DNA from: Microcaldota archaeon
GTDB lineage: Archaea; Micrarchaeota; Micrarchaeia; Norongarragalinales; Norongarragalinaceae
Assembly (NCBI GenBank): GCA_016214445.1
Contig: JACROM010000110.1
Span: forward strand, 1 to 12,771
Direction of reading: 5' to 3'
Length of the DNA stretch: 12,771 nucleotides
In this document: positions 1,142 through 12,173 of the stretch, in pieces
Layout of the letters: the number at the start of each line of letters is the position of its first letter
How positions within the stretch are numbered: position 1 is the first letter of the stretch
Notes under the pieces: model-generated
Database searches by the model: none
What the model was told of the DNA's origin: nothing
Seen by the model: only the letters and a program-made list of their open reading frames with translations
Made by a program: the position numbers and the translations under genes

Positions 1142-1933
1142 ATGTTTTCGCTTCGTTTGGTTGCAACCCAGCTTCTCGGCTCTTTCGCTCTTGCGCAGGT
1201 GCTCGGCCTGGCTGTTGGCGGGTTGTTCGCTTCCCGCGAGTTGGGCATAGTGGAGAACCCGTCCGACCCTTCCAACGCGCTGTATTTTTTCGGCGGAATA
1301 CTTTTAGTCACCGTACTGATGCTTTTGGTGCTCAAGTACTACAAGGGAAAACTTTTGTTCATAGCCATGGAGACCGTGCTGATATTCGTAACTTCCGACC
1401 TTTTCCTCTCGCTGTTCCTGCCCGGCATCTACGCAGCTGGAATTGCTTTCGCGTTGGTGGCGTTGAGGCACGTTTACCCGAAGGCCCGGCAGGCTTTGAT
1501 TCTTTCGGCGTCGGTGATAGTCGGCGCGCTTTTGGGAAGCTCGCTTGATTTCCTTCCAGTGCTGTTGTTCGTGGTGCTGCTTTCAAGCTACGATTTCGTC
1601 GCGGTGTTCATGACCAAGCACATGATTACCCTTGCCAAAGCGTTGGACAACCAGAAGAACAACTTCACCGTAGCGTTCAGGCACAAGAAGGACGTTGTCG
1701 AATTGGGAACCGGCGACTTCGTGGTGCCCATAGTGTTATGCGTTTCCGCTTCGCAGGCTTTCGGTATTGCTCCTGCCCTGTTTGCCGCTTTGGGCGCGAC
1801 AGCAGGGCTCGCGTCTCTCCTGTTTTTCATGGAGAAAAAGAAGGGCTACTATCCGGGCCTGCCGCCTGTTGTGTTCGGCGCGTTGCTCGCACTTGGCTTG
1901 TTCCTCGGAGCGAAGGCGGTTTTGGGCGCATAA
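1142..1933 (+). CDS. Presenilin-type intramembrane aspartyl protease
   Basis: A 263-residue polytopic membrane protein with about eight to nine hydrophobic segments. It has the three signatures of the presenilin/signal peptide peptidase (GxGD, family A22) proteases: YD with Asp151 in a membrane segment (LLSSYDFVAVF), GTGD with Asp192 (ELGTGDFVVPIV), and a PALP-like motif written PGLP at 238-241. The two Asp residues would form the catalytic pair that cuts peptides within the membrane. A lysine-rich hydrophilic loop (about 160-185) lies between the two catalytic segments, as in the family. Length fits archaeal presenilin homologues. The substrate cannot be inferred. It has its own TATA element and is followed 39 bases later by the start region of the kinase-like gene. 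Confidence 0.85.
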   Translation: MFSLRLVATQLLGSFALAQVLGLAVGGLFASRELGIVENPSDPSNALYFFGGILLVTVLMLLVLKYYKGKLLFIAMETVLIFVTSDLFLSLFLPGIYAAGIAFALVALRHVYPKARQALILSASVIVGALLGSSLDFLPVLLFVVLLSSYDFVAVFMTKHMITLAKALDNQKNNFTVAFRHKKDVVELGTGDFVVPIVLCVSASQAFGIAPALFAALGATAGLASLLFFMEKKKGYYPGLPPVVFGALLALGLFLGAKAVLGA

Positions 1934-3594: not shown

Positions 3595-3651
3595 CCACCT
3601 GTTTAATAAAGGATTATCCGAATTATTATATTAATTATAGCTAAGGTGGAG
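3595..3651. promoter_or_regulatory. Compact divergent promoter with two ribosome binding sites
   Basis: Facing outward, CCACCT (3595-3600, read AGGTGG on minus) and AGGTGG (3644-3649) are ribosome binding sites for the minus- and plus-strand genes. Between them lie two TATA-like elements: TTTAATAAA (3602-3610), placed to serve the plus strand, and an AT-only block at 3621-3638 (TTATATTAATTATA), placed to serve the minus strand. The two promoters therefore overlap. Confidence 0.5.
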
Positions 3652-4056
3652 TTTTTGGAATATAACCAATTATTGGACAACTTGTACGAGAAGCTGCCGA
3701 AGAAGACATCGAGCGGCGAGCGGTTCGAAAAACCCATAGCCGACACTTTCTTCCAGGGCACCAAGACCATAATCAGGAACTTCGATGAAATCTGCCGGAC
3801 CATCCGTAGAAAACCAGAAGAGTTCGCGAAGTACCTTTTCAAGGAGCTCGCCACCCCAGGAAGCATTGAAGGAGCAAGGTTAACCCTCCAGACGAAGGTT
3901 TACCCGAAGCTCCTGAACGAGAAGATTTCCAACTACGTCGACCAAAGCGTCATATGCAACGAGTGCGGCAAGCCGGACACGCACGTGGAGTACGGCCAGC
4001 CCGTAAACACGCTCATATGCGAAGCTTGCGGCGCGAGGAGACCGATCAGGCTATGA
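3646..4056 (+). CDS. eif2b: Translation initiation factor aIF2 subunit beta
   Basis: Beta subunit of the heterotrimeric factor that brings initiator Met-tRNA to the ribosome. At 136 residues it has the normal archaeal length. The N-terminal helix (NQLLDNLYEKLPK) binds the gamma subunit in this family. The central alpha-beta domain includes the conserved KTIIRNFDEICRTIRR and FAKYLFKELATPGS stretches. The C-terminal zinc ribbon has Cys104, Cys107, Cys125 and Cys128 (CNEC...CEAC), ending ARRPIRL. The start could be GTG 3646 or TTG 3655. The second places the AGGTGG at 3644-3649 upstream as a ribosome binding site and gives an N-terminus (MEYNQLL) typical of the family. The last bases are duplicated 146 bp downstream, and the TGA overlaps the next ATG. 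Confidence 0.95.
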   Translation: MEFLEYNQLLDNLYEKLPKKTSSGERFEKPIADTFFQGTKTIIRNFDEICRTIRRKPEEFAKYLFKELATPGSIEGARLTLQTKVYPKLLNEKISNYVDQSVICNECGKPDTHVEYGQPVNTLICEACGARRPIRL

Positions 4057-4204
4057 GCAAACCCAATTTTGGCCGTTCTGCCAAAATTCCGTTTACGGAA
4101 AAAGACAGACGCGCGAATCAAGTAAAACCCAAACGCTTCGCGTTTCCGTTTACGGAAAAAAATAGCCGTGCAAACCAGCAAAGGAGACCGATCAGATTAT
4201 GAGC
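4036..4204 (+). repeat. Hairpin-rich insertion flanked by a 23-bp direct repeat
   Basis: The same 23 bp, AGGAGACCGATCAG + 2 bases + TATGAGC, occurs at 4036-4058 and 4182-4204 (21/23 identical, GC versus AT at the variable pair). Copy 1 is the end of aIF2-beta. Copy 2 is the ribosome binding site and start of aIF1A. The intervening DNA holds four hairpins: AATTTTGGC/GCCAAAATT (4065-4088), TTCCGT/ACGGAA (4087-4100), AAACGC/GCGTTT (4131-4145) and TTTCCGT/ACGGAAA (4143-4158). A 17-bp exact repeat, TTCCGTTTACGGAAAAA, starts at 4087 and again at 4144, 57 bp (19 codons) apart. Removing one 146-bp unit restores an ATGA overlap between aIF2-beta and aIF1A. Confidence 0.8.
4053..4202 (+). CDS. Small ORF created by the insertion between aIF2-beta and aIF1A
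   Basis: The 49-residue frame starts at an ATG overlapping the aIF2-beta stop (ATGA, 4053-4056) and ends at a TGA overlapping the aIF1A ATG (4199-4202). Its start region is the first copy of the duplicated ribosome binding site plus ATG, so it could be translated by the same coupling that once served aIF1A. The product is basic and probably unstructured. It contains two approximate 19-residue repeats, IPFTEKDRRANQ... and FPFTEKNSRANQ..., and ends in RRPIRL, the same tail as aIF2-beta because the tail bases were duplicated. Whether it is expressed or merely tolerated is not known. I do not recognise the peptide. Confidence 0.5.
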   Translation: MSKPNFGRSAKIPFTEKDRRANQVKPKRFAFPFTEKNSRANQQRRPIRL

Positions 4205-4498
4205 GCATACCATCAACCAGAAGGTCCCATAAGAACCAGGATGCCGAGGCCCGGTGAAATCATGGGAATAGTCACGCAGCTGCACGGCGGAGCGAGGATG
4301 ATGGTGCACTGCGAGGACGGAAAAGATAGGATGTGCCGCGTTCCCGGCAAAATCAGGCGTTTCATCTGGGTCCGCGAAGGCGATTACGTCCTCATAGTCC
4401 CGTGGAGCGTAGAAGGCGACGAAAAGGCGGACATAGCTTACAGGTACACCAAGGTCCAGTCCGACCAGCTGAAAAGGCAGGGAGTAATCAAGGGTTAA
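4199..4498 (+). CDS. eif1a: Translation initiation factor aIF1A
   Basis: A 99-residue OB-fold factor that binds the ribosomal A site during initiation. Family features: the basic N-terminal PRPGEIMGIVTQLHGGARMMV beginning the barrel, VHCEDGKDRMCRVPGKIRRFIWVREGD, then a strand YVLIVPWS and the C-terminal helix region EKADIAYRYTK, ending soon after. Length is normal for archaea. The ATG at 4199 overlaps the stop of the inserted 49-codon ORF, and GGAG at 4183-4186 lies 12 bases upstream. Its stop codon (4496-4498) overlaps by two bases the stop codon of the convergent minus-strand gene (4495-4497). Confidence 0.95.
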   Translation: MSAYHQPEGPIRTRMPRPGEIMGIVTQLHGGARMMVHCEDGKDRMCRVPGKIRRFIWVREGDYVLIVPWSVEGDEKADIAYRYTKVQSDQLKRQGVIKG

Positions 4499-4962
4499 CA
4501 GGCGGACAACTCTTTCTTCGCTCTTTCAACCCCTTCGTCAAAACCTTCCAGGTAGTTTTTCCAGTAGTCCGCGTCTTGCGAGTCGCCTGCTTTTTCAAAC
4601 GATGAAACAGCCGAAGTTATTTTTTCCCTTATCACTTCCGTCCGGTCCAGCAATATTCCGTAAGTCTCCGCGTTGGAACAATCGAATCCGCCCGCAGGGG
4701 ATACCCGCTTCATTTCCGAGAAAAGGGATTTCGCCTCGTTGATTTTCTTCTGCGCGCCAACAAGGAGTTTTGCCCGTTCGCCGGAAACTGAAACGTTTTC
4801 CTGCAGCTCGCCGGATTGCAAAGGTTGCGACAACCCAGCCGGTTCCGGAATCTTCGACTTCAAAACCCGAAACTGGGTTTCCTCGCCCTGTGCGGTTTGC
4901 ATGGAAAGGAAAACAACCGAAACGAGCGCCAGAACGAACAGCGCAACAAGCAGGAACCTCAT
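4495..4962 (-). CDS. Secreted or membrane-anchored partner protein
   Basis: A 155-residue protein with a clear N-terminal hydrophobic signal (MRFLLVALFVLALVSVVFLS), so it is probably exported or anchored by that segment. The rest is helical, with charged stretches (ERAKLLVGAQKKINEAKSLFSEMK and VERAKKELSAC) and two cysteines, one in FDCSNAE and one at the C-terminus, which could pair or attach to a partner. The ATG (4960-4962) overlaps the stop of the large upstream gene as ATGA, so the two are likely co-translated. The frame is open farther upstream, but that part lies inside the large gene and the signal peptide fixes the start. No family recognised. Confidence 0.75.
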   Translation of the reverse strand: MRFLLVALFVLALVSVVFLSMQTAQGEETQFRVLKSKIPEPAGLSQPLQSGELQENVSVSGERAKLLVGAQKKINEAKSLFSEMKRVSPAGGFDCSNAETYGILLDRTEVIREKITSAVSSFEKAGDSQDADYWKNYLEGFDEGVERAKKELSAC

Positions 4963-7619
4963 GAGTACCACGGTTTCTCCTTCAATTCCTTCAGGCCGAA
5001 CAGGCTTCCGGAGTCTTTTTTTCCGGCCTTGAACGCGGAAGGCGAGGCCTGCTTCTTCAAATCGAACGCGAGGTTGCCGTAATTCCGGCTGCACAAGCTC
5101 GTCTTGAACGTCGCTTCGGCCAGTTTTTCGCCGCTTGGAACAACGTTGCTGGAAGAAATATCGTTGGCGGAAGTGGTGATGGAAACCAAGGCCGCCTCTT
5201 TTCCAGCCTGCAACTGGATGTCCATCAAGGCATAAATCAAGGAAAGGCGTTCTTGGAGTTGCTTGTTGTCTTCAGACCTGTAACCAACAGGAAAAACGCA
5301 GTCTGCCTTGTTTTCCTCATCGCTGATCTTGCATGTGTCCGCAAGGCTGTGTTTGCTATCCGGAGCCTGCAGTTTTCGCAGGTCAAGGACGGCCAAGTCC
5401 TTTTTTTCTTCTTGCGCCTGGGCGAGCATGAAGGCAGCCTGCGCTTCCGGGACTTTAGCGACTTGCGCCACCATTTGCGGATCCAACCGGACATTAGGGT
5501 CAAACGCGGACGCCAAAACGTTTTCGACAACGCTCCTGAGCGCGAACACGTCCACTTCGTTACCGTACTTTTGTTGAAGCGCCTGAAGTGCTTTCGGATC
5601 GTTGAACACCAGTTCTGCTAAAGCAGCAGCGGTCGGCTGTGAATCGAAAACAAGACCACGTTTGCCCTCTCGCGTAACGAATACTACGGGAAGCGTGGCC
5701 AGGGCCTCCTTTGTCTTCAGAACCGGGAAGAAGGAAAGCCGGTAATCGAACACCTGCTTGCCGCCGGAAGAACTTGCCCTTGGCGCCAGTTCGAGCGAGA
5801 TTTTCGACAGGGCGGGCCGTTCACCTGCTTGCTGACGCACGGTATTTCCTTCCTCCTGCGTTACTGTCCGCACGCTCTGCACGTCTGGAAGCGAGTAAGC
5901 GAGATAAAAACGCTCGAGCCCAAGCCCGGGCTTTCCCGTTTTAAACTCCAGCAGCGCCCCGACCTGCTCGCCTCCTTTGCCCCGGGAATCCATGCCTGCA
6001 AAGAAAACCATTTGCGACGGCTTGCTCGGGTTGAAGCCTAAGAGGTAAGTTTGTTTGGCTGACGAAGAGTACTGTTCGCTGAAAACCGACACCTCGCTGA
6101 AGAAAGGCCCGAAAGGCCCGGCAGCGCCTCCGCCTATCGTTACTTCTTCCGTCTGAGTGGAGCCGTATTCTTCGCCTGCCTTCGAGTAAGCGAACCAGAC
6201 GTATTTTTCTTCCTGAAGGCCTGGCTGCGGCTCATCACCTTGCTGGTACATGTTTAGCTTGTTATTTTCGACCCTGTCAACGCGGTAGGGTTTTCCGTTA
6301 ATTACCAGATTTTGCGACTCAAATTCCTTGAGCTTCATGATACGGGCTATAACCGTATCAGTTGGCTTCGGCAGCGAATGATAAGCCAATTCCCGTATAA
6401 AATCATCCGGAGTCGCATCCGAGCTGAACAAATACCCTTGCTGCGATTGCAACGGAGGAATAACGGGAATGTTTCCGTTGTATTGCTGCCAGCCTCGGCC
6501 GCCACCGTACGAGGGCAGCCTGCCTCCGCTCCGCGAACCGCCTTCCAACCCCAAAAGCCCGCTGATGCTGTCCTTCGAACCGTAGTGGATCACGAAATTT
6601 CCTTTACCGCTCTTGGAAACATCGGTCTGCGTTGAAGAAAAACCTCCCGGGCCGGCCCTTTCTTCCCAGCTGCTCTTGCTTGCCTGTTCCTCTTCTACGA
6701 AAAACATGGTGAGCGAAGCCAAACCTCCTTTTTTCATGTCGAATACTGCCGACGCCCGAGTAAGCTTGCTGCCTGCTTTGGCTCCTGAAGGGATGACCGG
6801 GCCGTTGTCCCCGTACGAGAGCGTGAGCAACTTGGACCAGCCATCCGGACTGTTCTGGTAGTCAACCGATGCCTCCCGTTCGCCTTGCATGTCGAAAGCA
6901 ACGCTGAGGCCTGAAAAATGGATTTTTCCTTCGCTGTTGCGCGCCAACTCGAGGCTCGCGCGCGACAACCCGGAAGACGTCCGGTACTGGCCCCGGAAGT
7001 TATAGCCGAGAGTGAAGCGCTGGACTGCCAGTTTTCCCTCCGGGTTTTTGCCGAAAGACAACCTGGCGCTGACGGAACCCCGGTCGCTGGCGCCGCCAGT
7101 TGGCATGGAAACGTCAAGCGACATCGCGCCGCGCAACAGGTCTCGGATGTTCAACGACACGCCTTTGCCGAGCGGGATGCCGGTGTCGGCTACCCGAAAC
7201 TGGGCCTGTTCGCCCGGCACCCACTTTATGAAGACAGGCCAACCGCCAGGCGGCGGGCTTACGACATGGTTTGACCCAGGAACGTAACCTGTCGGGAAAG
7301 CGGACTGCACACCGGGCCCGTATATGGACTCTTCCGAAACCGTACGCTTTACACGGGCTTCCTCCTGGATTTCCTCAATGGCTTTCGCTAAATTGCGTTG
7401 CAGCGCAGGCATCACGTAAGAACCTTCTTCCTCTTTCGGCGGGATGAGAAAATAGTCCGCGCGGGAAACCTCGTCAAAAAAGTTGTCGAGCGCCTTGGCG
7501 ACCAAAGGGTCGGTTTGCTGTTTTTTCAGAACCTCTCGCAGTTTGCTTTTCGGCGAAGCAAGGTCGCTGACGCAAGCCGGGTCAGTAACCATGACAACCG
7601 GCAGCGAATTCAGGGCCAC
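4959..7619 (-). CDS. Large beta-rich extracellular protein, main open frame
   Basis: An 886-residue frame starting formally at GTG 7617-7619. In the same frame the codons continue upstream, past one TAA at 7725-7727, into a signal-peptide-bearing start at 7842-7844, so this is likely the body of a secreted protein of about 960 residues. It begins with a helical segment opening in LPVVMVTD (about 6-13). Long beta-hairpin-like repeats of roughly 40 residues follow, rich in Gly, Ser and Asp (SARLSFGKNPEGKLAV, SLELARNSEGKIHFSG and others). A Gly/Tyr/Gln-rich linker (about 365-395) and a second beta block follow. A second LPVVFVTRE segment (about 640-650) is followed by helices. Cysteines are few and mostly C-terminal. 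I recognise no family; a surface or cell-envelope role is inferred. Confidence 0.75.
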   Translation of the reverse strand: MALNSLPVVMVTDPACVSDLASPKSKLREVLKKQQTDPLVAKALDNFFDEVSRADYFLIPPKEEEGSYVMPALQRNLAKAIEEIQEEARVKRTVSEESIYGPGVQSAFPTGYVPGSNHVVSPPPGGWPVFIKWVPGEQAQFRVADTGIPLGKGVSLNIRDLLRGAMSLDVSMPTGGASDRGSVSARLSFGKNPEGKLAVQRFTLGYNFRGQYRTSSGLSRASLELARNSEGKIHFSGLSVAFDMQGEREASVDYQNSPDGWSKLLTLSYGDNGPVIPSGAKAGSKLTRASAVFDMKKGGLASLTMFFVEEEQASKSSWEERAGPGGFSSTQTDVSKSGKGNFVIHYGSKDSISGLLGLEGGSRSGGRLPSYGGGRGWQQYNGNIPVIPPLQSQQGYLFSSDATPDDFIRELAYHSLPKPTDTVIARIMKLKEFESQNLVINGKPYRVDRVENNKLNMYQQGDEPQPGLQEEKYVWFAYSKAGEEYGSTQTEEVTIGGGAAGPFGPFFSEVSVFSEQYSSSAKQTYLLGFNPSKPSQMVFFAGMDSRGKGGEQVGALLEFKTGKPGLGLERFYLAYSLPDVQSVRTVTQEEGNTVRQQAGERPALSKISLELAPRASSSGGKQVFDYRLSFFPVLKTKEALATLPVVFVTREGKRGLVFDSQPTAAALAELVFNDPKALQALQQKYGNEVDVFALRSVVENVLASAFDPNVRLDPQMVAQVAKVPEAQAAFMLAQAQEEKKDLAVLDLRKLQAPDSKHSLADTCKISDEENKADCVFPVGYRSEDNKQLQERLSLIYALMDIQLQAGKEAALVSITTSANDISSSNVVPSGEKLAEATFKTSLCSRNYGNLAFDLKKQASPSAFKAGKKDSGSLFGLKELKEKPWYS

Positions 7620-10616: not shown

Positions 10617-10805
10617 CTGCAAACCCTCTTCTTCTGCTTTCTCCAACTTTTTGCTCGGGTTGAAGGTCCAGATGAAGCCTTTCTTCGTTTCCAAGACAAT
10701 GCCTTTCTTTTCCAAATAGTCCAAGGCAACATTCAGGGTAGAACGCATTGCTTGTTTCGGCAGGCGGGATAGGATTTGGTTCTTGCTTACTGCAGATATT
10801 GTCAT
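10611..10805 (-). CDS. Winged-helix-like small protein, probably truncated by the IS
   Basis: Sixty-four residues. The first half (ILSRLPKQAMRSTLNVALDYLEKKGIVLETKKGFIWTFNP) resembles the recognition helix and wing of a DNA-binding winged-helix domain, followed by a charged tail. Its ATG (10803-10805) lies inside the left terminal repeat of the IS and overlaps the transposase stop (TGA 10802-10804) as ATGA. The first codons are therefore IS-derived and the original N-terminus was probably lost on insertion. It might now be expressed with the transposase. Function unknown. Confidence 0.45.
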   Translation of the reverse strand: MTISAVSKNQILSRLPKQAMRSTLNVALDYLEKKGIVLETKKGFIWTFNPSKKLEKAEEEGLQK

Positions 10806-11729
10806 CTTAGCGAATGATGCGTTTTCTTGGCGTGAAAACGGATGAGGTTGAGCAGTTTTTCTCTTCCGAGTCGAACGTTTACCCGTGCGGCTTCAGCGGG
10901 CGTTCGGCCTTTCAGACTCATGTGCGGATTCACAAAATTATGCAGCACCCGATTCAAATCCAAGAAACACTTGGCGCCCGGATGACTTCCGAAATCCCGC
11001 ATGGTCTTTACCCGATCCTCAATGCTACTGTTGTACCGTTCGATTGCATTGTTGTTGTGTTCGAGCCCATATTTTCTGCAAGCGATGGGCACGCCAAAAC
11101 GCAATTTGCACGTCCTGTAAAAAAGTTTGTTGAACGCATTGCGGTAATTCTGAAAACCGTCGCTCACGAAAACAATCAGTTTGCGTGTACCGGCAGGCTT
11201 GAACCGTTCCCGCCTGTACACGTCAAGAATTTGAGCGTAACACGCGGTTTTCACTTGGCGTAGAAAATCAACACAAGCGCGAGTCGTCCTTTTTACGACG
11301 TAGGAATGGGCCAAAACGTATTTGGTTTTGCTGTCAATCGCGTTCAAGTCGTACCCGTGTCGATGGCCGACATGGATGAACTTTTCGTCAACGTGCACAC
11401 GGCCTACGATGCGCGGGTTCAAACCGCCGTGAAACTTATTTAAAAAAAGCCGAGTATTTTTTCTCCCAATTCAAGATGGTCATCCGCGTGACTTTTACGC
11501 GGTCGTGTTGCCAAAGATGATTCTGGACTTTGGAAAGCGAGAAACCGTCTTGGTGCATGTGAATGGCTCGAACGATGGTTTTTGGTTTGTGCCGCATGCG
11601 TTCAAAACCATCTGGTCGCACGAATTGCTTTTTGCATGCGGTGCACCAATAGCTTTGTTTGGTTATGCTTTTTCGTTTTCGTTTGCCGTTTTTGACGACG
11701 GCATTGCTTTTACAGAAAATGCATTGCAC
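10802..11729 (-). pseudogene. DDE transposase, IS6/IS240-like, split by a +1 shift
   Basis: GTG 11727-11729 follows GGTGG and opens an N-terminal zinc ribbon (C3, C6, then WCTAC) and a helix-turn-helix region ending WEKKYSAFF at TAA 11436. The next frame resumes through LNKFHGGLNPRIVGR into the catalytic domain: first Asp in VHVDEKF, second in VFVSDGFQNY, Glu in NNNAIERYN, with HNFVNPHMSLKGRTPAEAA near the end. This pattern fits IS6-type (DDE_Tnp_IS240) enzymes with a zinc-ribbon N-terminus. One base too many in the T7 run (A7 at 11442-11448 on plus) separates the halves. Joined, the protein has 308 residues. All three catalytic acids are intact, so slippage on the run could still make enzyme. 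Confidence 0.75.
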
Positions 11730-11758
11730 AAAACCACCGGGAATATTCAAAGCCCGGC

Positions 11759-11837: not shown

Positions 11838-11876
11838 GGGTTTTTATAGAGTCGCTCTTATCGGAAGGTGAAACTT

Positions 11877-12173
11877 ATGGCTAAGAAAACTAAACCTAAG
11901 AAGCGTATCGATACCTCTTTCAAGGTAGAGAACATAGTCGCCTCCGCCAACCTGAAGGTTGACCTGGACCTGTTCAACATCGCGATGGAAGTGGACAACG
12001 TCGAATACGAGCCCGAACAGTTTCCTGGCGCAATCATGCGCCTCAAGGACATCGGCACCACGCTTCTGCTCTTTAAGAACGGAAAAGTCATCTGTTCCGG
12101 AGCAAAAAGCGAGCGCCAGATCAGCCAGAGCATCAAGAAGGCTGTCGAGCTGTTAAGGGACTTCATACACTGA
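11877..12173 (+). CDS. tbp: TATA-binding protein with only one TBP repeat
   Basis: TBP recognises the TATA element and starts assembly of the archaeal transcription complex. The start is ATG 11877, behind GGAAGGTGA; an in-frame GTG at 11868 is part of that site. The 98-residue product has a basic N-terminal tail (MAKKTKPKKR) and one complete TBP repeat: VENIVASANL (17-26), VEYEPEQFPGAIMRL (42-56), LLLFKNGKVICSGAKS (63-78) and the closing helix to FIH. The two phenylalanines that wedge into DNA in each TBP repeat are kept (F49 in QFPG, F66 in LLF). Normal archaeal TBP has two such repeats, about 180 residues. Here the gene ends cleanly after one, and a different gene starts five bases later. 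It could act as a homodimer, or be a second, partial paralogue. Confidence 0.9.
   Translation: MAKKTKPKKRIDTSFKVENIVASANLKVDLDLFNIAMEVDNVEYEPEQFPGAIMRLKDIGTTLLLFKNGKVICSGAKSERQISQSIKKAVELLRDFIH

Follow-up and report, generated by a model that had tools for sequence, protein, structure and literature searches.

The DNA between the aIF2-beta and aIF1A genes in the window analyzed here (the whole 12,771-nt stretch, contig C104 of a 1.29-Mb draft genome that is 72% complete) is best explained as a mobile palindromic element that is non-autonomous and occurs in Micrarchaeota as well as in at least one other archaeon, GW2011_AR10 (hereafter AR10); we place the probability of this reading at roughly 0.85, and use the working name "NAAC/GTT palindromic element." One such element would comprise a single hairpin unit and a tail of about 15–37 nt. 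The preliminary description treated the insert as one element; it is instead made of two tandem copies of one unit (Table 1).

Compared with related genomes, this DNA is a real insertion relative to an empty junction. A match to aIF1A was recovered in 36 of 39 relatives searched, as well as in the window genome itself. Among the 29 relatives' loci that were read, three (G001, G008, and G010) lack any spacer and join the end of aIF2-beta to the following ATG by an ATGA overlap, which in G001 reads GCCACGAGGCCGATCCGCGTATGAGC; all three belong to one genus (g2) in the family of the window genome and are that family's top three by aIF1A score. The remaining junctions carry variable spacers of up to about 225 nt (counted by script between the aIF2-beta stop and the point where the aIF1A alignment starts), with no insert-like sequence recognized by eye; in G013, no aIF2-beta was found upstream of aIF1A. 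Joining the window flanks without the insert restores the ATGA overlap, as had been claimed for removal of 146 bp, and the comparison with close relatives that the preliminary description called for thus came out in its favor. Several other elements of that description were reproduced: the identity of both neighbors by Pfam, the ATGA overlaps on both sides, the 23-bp repeat (copies 146 bp apart start to start, with 123 bp between them), and an exact 17-bp internal repeat, TTCCGTTTACGGAAAAA, at positions 4087 and 4144, 57 bp apart.

Table 1. Features of the aIF2-beta/aIF1A junction, in window coordinates
Feature	Position	Strand	Details
aIF2-beta gene	3646..4056	+	136 aa, C-terminal RRPIRL-stop; PF01873, E 5.6e-30
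Duplicated landing site, left copy (aIF2-beta end, stop, and first ATG of new ORF)	4036..4058	+	21/23 versus 4182–4204
49-codon new ORF joining aIF2-beta and aIF1A	4053..4202	+	ATGA overlap at both ends
Hairpin unit 1	4059..4098	+	AAAC-CC-(AATTTTGGC..GCCAAAATT)-CC-GTTTACGG; identical copy on C114
Tail 1, 26 nt	4099..4124	+	Equals C114 tail 1; resembles tail 2 (shuffle p 0.008)
Hairpin unit 2	4125..4155	+	AAAC-CC-(AAACGC TTC GCGTTT)-CC-GTTTACGG; 31/31 with C80 copy
Tail 2, 26 nt	4156..4181	+	
Duplicated landing site, right copy (RRPIRL-stop, overlapping aIF1A start)	4182..4204	+	Two mismatches to left copy, synonymous in RPIRL-stop
aIF1A gene	4199..4498	+	99 aa; PF01176, E 9.4e-21

The unit is not confined to this junction: seven hairpin units occur at five loci of the window genome (C67, C80, C43, and two each on C104 and C114), in keeping with the expectation of a second copy. 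Outside the window contig, the 17-mer recurs without mismatch on C67 and C114, and the whole insert aligned to C114 with 92% identity over 98 query bases and to C80 with 100% over 31. The pattern AAACCC-gap-CGTTTACGG returned six matches at four loci (reversed-pattern control, 0), and a covariance model of the unit added the C43 copy.

Seventeen loci were tested for a direct repeat whose left copy ends where the unit begins, with 300 shuffles and swapped flanks as controls. Four of the five loci in the window genome have a repeat at zero offset from the unit start, so that in the window the left landing-site copy stops directly before the first base of unit 1: 21/23 positions agree at C104, 26/29 at C114, and 21/25 at C80 (shuffle p 0 in 300 shuffles for each), and 13/15 at C43 (p 0.003, 300 shuffles). 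The fifth, at C67, is weak (9/10, p 0.047) and lies two bases off the unit start. The flanking repeat of the window scored 19, a value that none of 300 shuffles and none of 16 swapped flanks attained (the best swapped flank scored 7), and swapped flanks never reached the observed score at any of the five loci. In other genomes, 12 loci were tested and not one had such a repeat at p < 0.01; G028 gave p 0.017. At C114, the near copy ends a UbiD gene in frame (VDVKKFLE-stop) and the far copy reads VDLKKFLE-stop; at C43, the gene-side copy reads AAEAIAKKIA in the frame of the gene, and the far copy ADAIAEKLKA. Because both copies have like gene ends at these two loci, the flanking repeats look like copied coding ends rather than chance likenesses. 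Host sequence, as read from these comparisons, has been duplicated over 15–29 bp, with the left copy ending at the unit, at four of five loci; this supports the earlier proposal of a palindromic element that duplicates its landing site.

Taken alone, the direct repeat at the window could have arisen if the junction had slipped locally or been duplicated in tandem and unrelated hairpins had then grown there, with the 49-codon ORF being an ordinary small gene; the frame of the insert is, after all, open in 26% of shuffles. Such an origin is scarcely credible given that the unit recurs on other contigs of the same genome, mostly with flanking repeats, that no homologue of the peptide was found, and that the junction is empty in relatives; slippage is refuted unless the other copies are contamination. 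Several observations do count against the mobile-element account, among them the lack of a direct repeat at p < 0.01 at the 12 loci in other genomes and the lack of a mobilizer found (see below). In addition, the elements on C104 and C114 agree in every letter for 75 nt, counted from the first base of unit 1, and then differ in the stem-loop of unit 2, yet their flanking repeats have diverged by 9–10%. Simple single-age transposition does not predict this combination, and either selection or correction keeps the unit, or copying of the target is error-prone.

Across 18 aligned copies (16 distinct), the consensus of the unit is N-AAC-CC-(variable stem-loop)-CC-GTT-N'-RCGG, with a length of 31–116 nt. 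The RCGG end is present in 18/18 aligned units, partly because the search patterns required it, and AAC and GTT are invariant in 16/16 distinct rows, again partly by construction of the search. The outer letter pair changes jointly (A/T 13, C/G 2, G/C 1). The stem of the unit stays paired while its letters change: stem cells pair in 97.0% of cases versus 64.0% when shuffled (16 distinct rows, fitted to the model), and the covariation score is 0.73 versus 0.15 for these model-fitted copies. Changes on both sides affect 10 of 13 stem pairs (shuffle mean 8.3, observed count reached by 49/500 shuffles), and the observed pair types are reached by 28/500, so that two of five covariation measures lie near the shuffles. 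A MAFFT alignment of seven copies gave 95.4% pairing versus 69.7%, with both-side changes in 9/13 pairs versus 5.6 (2/500 shuffles). Template switching within quasi-palindromes can also yield covariation; the signal could come from that process, and alone is no proof of a functional hairpin. Five UBA95 copies (L193, L198, L199, L200, and L209) have apices that are alike (around GCTTGGTGCTTCGGC) and stems that differ, as template switching or repeated re-pairing would be expected to produce.

Compared with shuffled sequence, the insert has the more stable predicted fold, with z −2.9 as DNA (1/200 shuffles equally good) and −3.1 as RNA (2/200). Four hairpins had been proposed for it; these are two variable stem-loops and two CCG/CGG mini-hairpins, and the predicted minimum-energy fold retains the first stem-loop but pairs the two 17-mer regions with each other. 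Tails span 15–37 nt in the window genome, as measured from the position of the right repeat, and a second hairpin lies in the tail region at C43, at the UBA95 loci C20, C30, and C26, and at both AR10 copies. In AR10 (L205 at 363622 and L206 at 1160386), this adjacent second hairpin is branched and carries complementary changes, GACATCC/GGGTGTC versus GACGTCC/GGACGTC. Tails from different loci resemble each other weakly: of 20 pairs that are not identical, 8 gave shuffle p < 0.05 and the others values up to 0.94 (tail 1 counted at both of its loci). A duplication of about 50 bp taking in the tail was considered and rejected; since at C104, C114, and C43 the tail does not resemble the flank upstream of the unit, and at C80 it does so just weakly (shift p 0.16, shuffle p 0.01), the tail is counted as part of the element.

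The anatomy of the unit invites comparison with integrons, whose attC sites combine AAC/GTT triplets, an unpaired spacer, and a variable terminal stem. The archaeal unit has a similar outline, with invariant triplets, an unpaired spacer, and a variable stem, and integrons have been reported from archaea (PMC9668308). That the insert is an integron-type attC recombination site or a gene cassette is nonetheless highly improbable. The unit lacks the 7-bp complementary R box: pairing of the outer helix mostly ends after four base pairs, beyond which the host flank is mostly non-complementary (C43 extends further). There are no cassettes, just a 26-nt tail between units, and the target is duplicated.

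Beyond the window genome, copies of the unit were found at six loci in Micrarchaeota UBA95 (G002, of the same family), at four loci in three genomes of the same order (genus g13: contigs C36 and C24 of G015, G026, and G028), and at two loci in AR10, which we take to be a Diapherotrites member of the DPANN. A pattern scan of 301 genomes of the class returned 66 places in 48 genomes, with the reversed control also matching many genomes; 11 of these places have a stem of at least 6 bp (7 in the window genome, 4 in genus g13), another is the C20 copy of UBA95, and the other 54 have stems of 3 bp or less. Stem-bearing matches thus fall in the window genome, UBA95, and the three g13 genomes only, within the limits of the patterns, which miss hairpins whose gaps fall outside the allowed range, such as most of the six UBA95 copies. 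A wide search of the 301 genomes with the model had low sensitivity, scoring 17 candidates in each genome and recovering 2 of the 7 units of the window genome, and the class-wide spread therefore rests on the patterns. A pattern scan of a wider contig collection gave at least 113 stretches; among the matches listed, UBA95 (interrupted stem), AR10 (9 bp), and Pedobacter (5 bp) stood out, AR10 being the only long-stem match listed from outside the class. Viral collections gave 18, at least 120, and 0 stretches, with no stem of 5 bp or more among the matches listed, and BLAST searches of plasmids and phages returned 5 and 2 records, respectively (best E 0.1), none of them a copy. This patchy spread fits a mobile element.

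Copies lie mostly at the edges of genes. Of the 13 protein-gene loci examined (5 in the window genome, 6 in UBA95, 2 in AR10; mostly predicted ORFs, tallied by eye without a null), six (C104, C80, C67, and UBA95 C20, C30, and C19) have no more than 7 nt between the left end of the unit and a likely start codon, and the unit is near the 3' end of an ORF at C114, C43, and both AR10 loci. The UBA95 C26 copy is in a 5' leader, and the C57 copy may sit at a second overlap junction. Only the UBA95 C55 copy (L209) lies inside an ORF: here, a gene for the M48 protease HtpX (PF01435; 1354–2424, minus strand) reads through a 116-nt unit in frame and antisense, adding about 40 residues directly before the conserved EWEKTN...STHPLTYKRL segment. 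None of the 11 homologues aligned, drawn from 120 of the 453 found, has the inserted peptide, around TVNGIEARPCKTSF...GTSIGF. Several of them, including P0004, P0010, and P0012, carry unrelated linkers at this point, marking a length-variable region, which counts against the mobile-element account.

The g13 copies appear to be associated with tRNA genes. In G015 C36 (L055), a tRNA gene (1421–1590, minus strand) has an insert of about 104 nt in its anticodon region that holds the unit in antisense; the gene was called by Rfam and by ARAGORN with introns allowed, and a default ARAGORN run gave none. The G015 C24, G028, and G026 copies lie in sense between stretches that by eye resemble tRNA halves, although brute-force removal of the insert at these three loci yielded a "tRNA" for many different removals. 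Archaeal tRNA introns have a proposed mobile origin (PMC3293823), which makes them a natural comparison, but the unit is antisense at one of these loci and sense at the other three and so is not itself the splice motif.

The placement near gene starts, together with the covariation and the second hairpin seen behind the unit in several copies of UBA95 and in the two of AR10, might suggest a structured cis-acting RNA of mRNAs (an attenuator, or a processing or binding site) that does not move at all. We regard this as very improbable. Copies occur in both orientations relative to the adjoining gene, which weakens the proposal; the genes concerned are unrelated (aIF1A, UbiD, a JAB protease, and HtpX by Pfam, and a tRNA); the distribution is patchy; and duplications flank the unit. 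Known RNA families were also searched: no Rfam match to the element itself was found at the window, 14 related loci, or the four tRNA-type loci, the one tRNA match being to a gene that spans the element. Given both orientations, the palindromic element is probably a DNA-level one.

The insert nevertheless carries a reading frame, whose 49-residue product is MSKPNFGRSAKIPFTEKDRRANQVKPKRFAFPFTEKNSRANQQRRPIRL. Its length agrees with the preliminary description; the two 19-residue repeats reported there reduce to an 11-residue core, PFTEKxxRANQ, with 9/11 identities at a spacing of 19. No homologue was found in about 5.8 billion proteins, a collection in which short ORFs are probably poorly represented, no candidate shared three common 5-residue words, and there was no Pfam match, so that the refuting outcome foreseen earlier, a conserved ordinary gene, was not encountered. 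The frame was open in 771 of 3000 dinucleotide shuffles of the insert (26%), or about one in twelve when the frame requirement is included; the open frame is thus unremarkable and by itself no evidence of coding function. In the window, the copied 23 bp carry stop, start, and leader, which turned the insert into a 49-codon ORF overlapping both neighbors, and ribosomes could pass from aIF2-beta through this ORF to aIF1A by termination–reinitiation. We take the peptide to be a tolerated by-product of an insertion that keeps translational coupling.

As to how the element moves, the best-supported mechanism would have an enzyme recognize the folded hairpin, as single-stranded or cruciform DNA, and join it to target DNA whose strands are opened about 25 nt apart, with fill-in producing the duplication; the insertion and the duplication themselves are seen in the sequence, whereas the enzyme, the single-strand step, and a gene-edge filter are inferred. 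Survival would be mostly at gene edges, since there the duplication returns a stop or start signal. Candidate mobilizers were sought in the six carrier genomes. Reverse transcriptase (PF00078), which target-primed retro-insertion would need, was found in 0 of 6 (control positive in 3/14), and Cas1 (PF01867), as in CRISPR or casposon integration, in UBA95 only (control 9/14). Y1 transposase (PF01797) was absent from the window genome, G015, G026, G028, and AR10 (control 6/14), and in UBA95 appeared only as a fragment (profile positions 91–119 of 121) at a contig end. The negatives for the window genome are weak because the draft is 72% complete; the AR10 record is titled a complete chromosome.

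These searches bear on the possibility that the element is a classical REP, moved by an HUH (Y1) RAYT that cuts and joins a tagged hairpin as single-stranded DNA. REPs of the GTAG and CGTC kinds are palindromes that carry a tag and vary in their stems (PMC3733652), and the archaeal unit shares with them a short tagged imperfect palindrome, unpaired dinucleotides, variable stems, and grouping; the Y1 fragment in UBA95 points the same way. A RAYT-driven REP is still unlikely. No Y1_Tnp was detected in five of six carriers, AR10 included; IS200/IS605 elements have no larger target duplications described (PMC2817692), in contrast to the 15–29-bp repeats here; and the tag is RCGG, neither GTAG nor CGTC.

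The closest parallels are the CGTC REPs, which include the Rickettsia elements RPE-4 and RPE-6, can sit within genes in frame, and have no dedicated transposase (PMC3733652, PMC10969869). They share with the archaeal unit a short palindrome, a tetranucleotide tag at one end, heterogeneous complementary stems, and grouped copies (PMC3733652), as well as the lack of a dedicated transposase found and the capacity for in-frame protein insertion (here, the one UBA95 HtpX copy). Stems begin with A–T pairs almost invariably in those elements and mostly in the archaeal unit. Differences include the DPANN host, the RCGG tag in place of CGTC (or TGTC, CCTC), the CC/CC internal loop between the 4-bp NAAC/GTTN' helix and the variable stem, and the 15–29-bp duplications. 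In contrast to RPEs, there is no conserved peptide, because the archaeal unit is read in different frames and strands: the window copy is sense (KIPFTEK) and the UBA95 HtpX copy antisense (TVNGIE). The earlier likening to Rickettsia palindromic elements therefore holds for the in-frame insertion but not for the tag or the encoded peptide.

GTAG REPs with RAYT are likewise imperfect palindromes with a conserved head and internal mismatches that are mostly extragenic and dispersed (PMC2817692, PMC3733652). The archaeal unit differs from them in lacking the GTAG head, in numbering 7 units in the window genome versus the usual >100, in having no RAYT found in five of six carriers, and in its target duplication. 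Prokaryotic MITEs are also tiny and non-autonomous, duplicate their target, and lie near genes (PMC10969869), the duplication being seen here in the window genome only; compared with MITEs, the archaeal element has no terminal inverted repeats and no recognized parent transposon, and only its internal hairpin is inverted. The RepRanger survey reports REP-like palindromes in six listed genomes of Euryarchaeota and Crenarchaeota, and its available text mentions neither DPANN nor "Nanoarchae" (PMC12306157). Earlier reports of palindromic elements in Micrarchaeota, or of miniature inverted-repeat elements in DPANN, were not found in the literature searched, from which subscription journals are mostly absent.

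Other features of the window lie downstream of the junction. A TATA-binding protein gene (11868–12170, plus strand) encodes 101 aa with one full TBP repeat (PF00352 positions 1–85 of 85, in one stretch); TATA-binding proteins usually have two. An IS240-type DDE transposase (10802–11750, minus strand) is apparently split into two ORFs in different frames, the larger with PF13610, and no hairpin unit was seen by eye at the ends of this element. An 886-aa ORF (4962–7619, minus strand) had no Pfam match at E ≤ 0.01.

The NAAC/GTT palindromic element is best filed as a DPANN variant of tagged palindromic (REP/RPE-like) mobile elements. More tentatively, and with real doubt, it might represent a class of DPANN transposable element with a 31–116-nt hairpin and 15–29-bp target duplications that prefers start/stop junctions and tRNA genes, yielding coupled ORFs, in-frame insertions, and possibly tRNA introns. 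A REP/RPE-like element in DPANN archaea would be one whose empty site, duplicated landing sites, and in-frame protein insertion are readable from sequence, and the window would offer a clean case of a new overlapping ORF born within a core translation operon while both overlaps were preserved. With no reverse transcriptase found in these small genomes, and in most of them no Cas1 or Y1, the enzyme that mobilizes such a hairpin and leaves 15–29-bp duplications becomes a sharply posed question.
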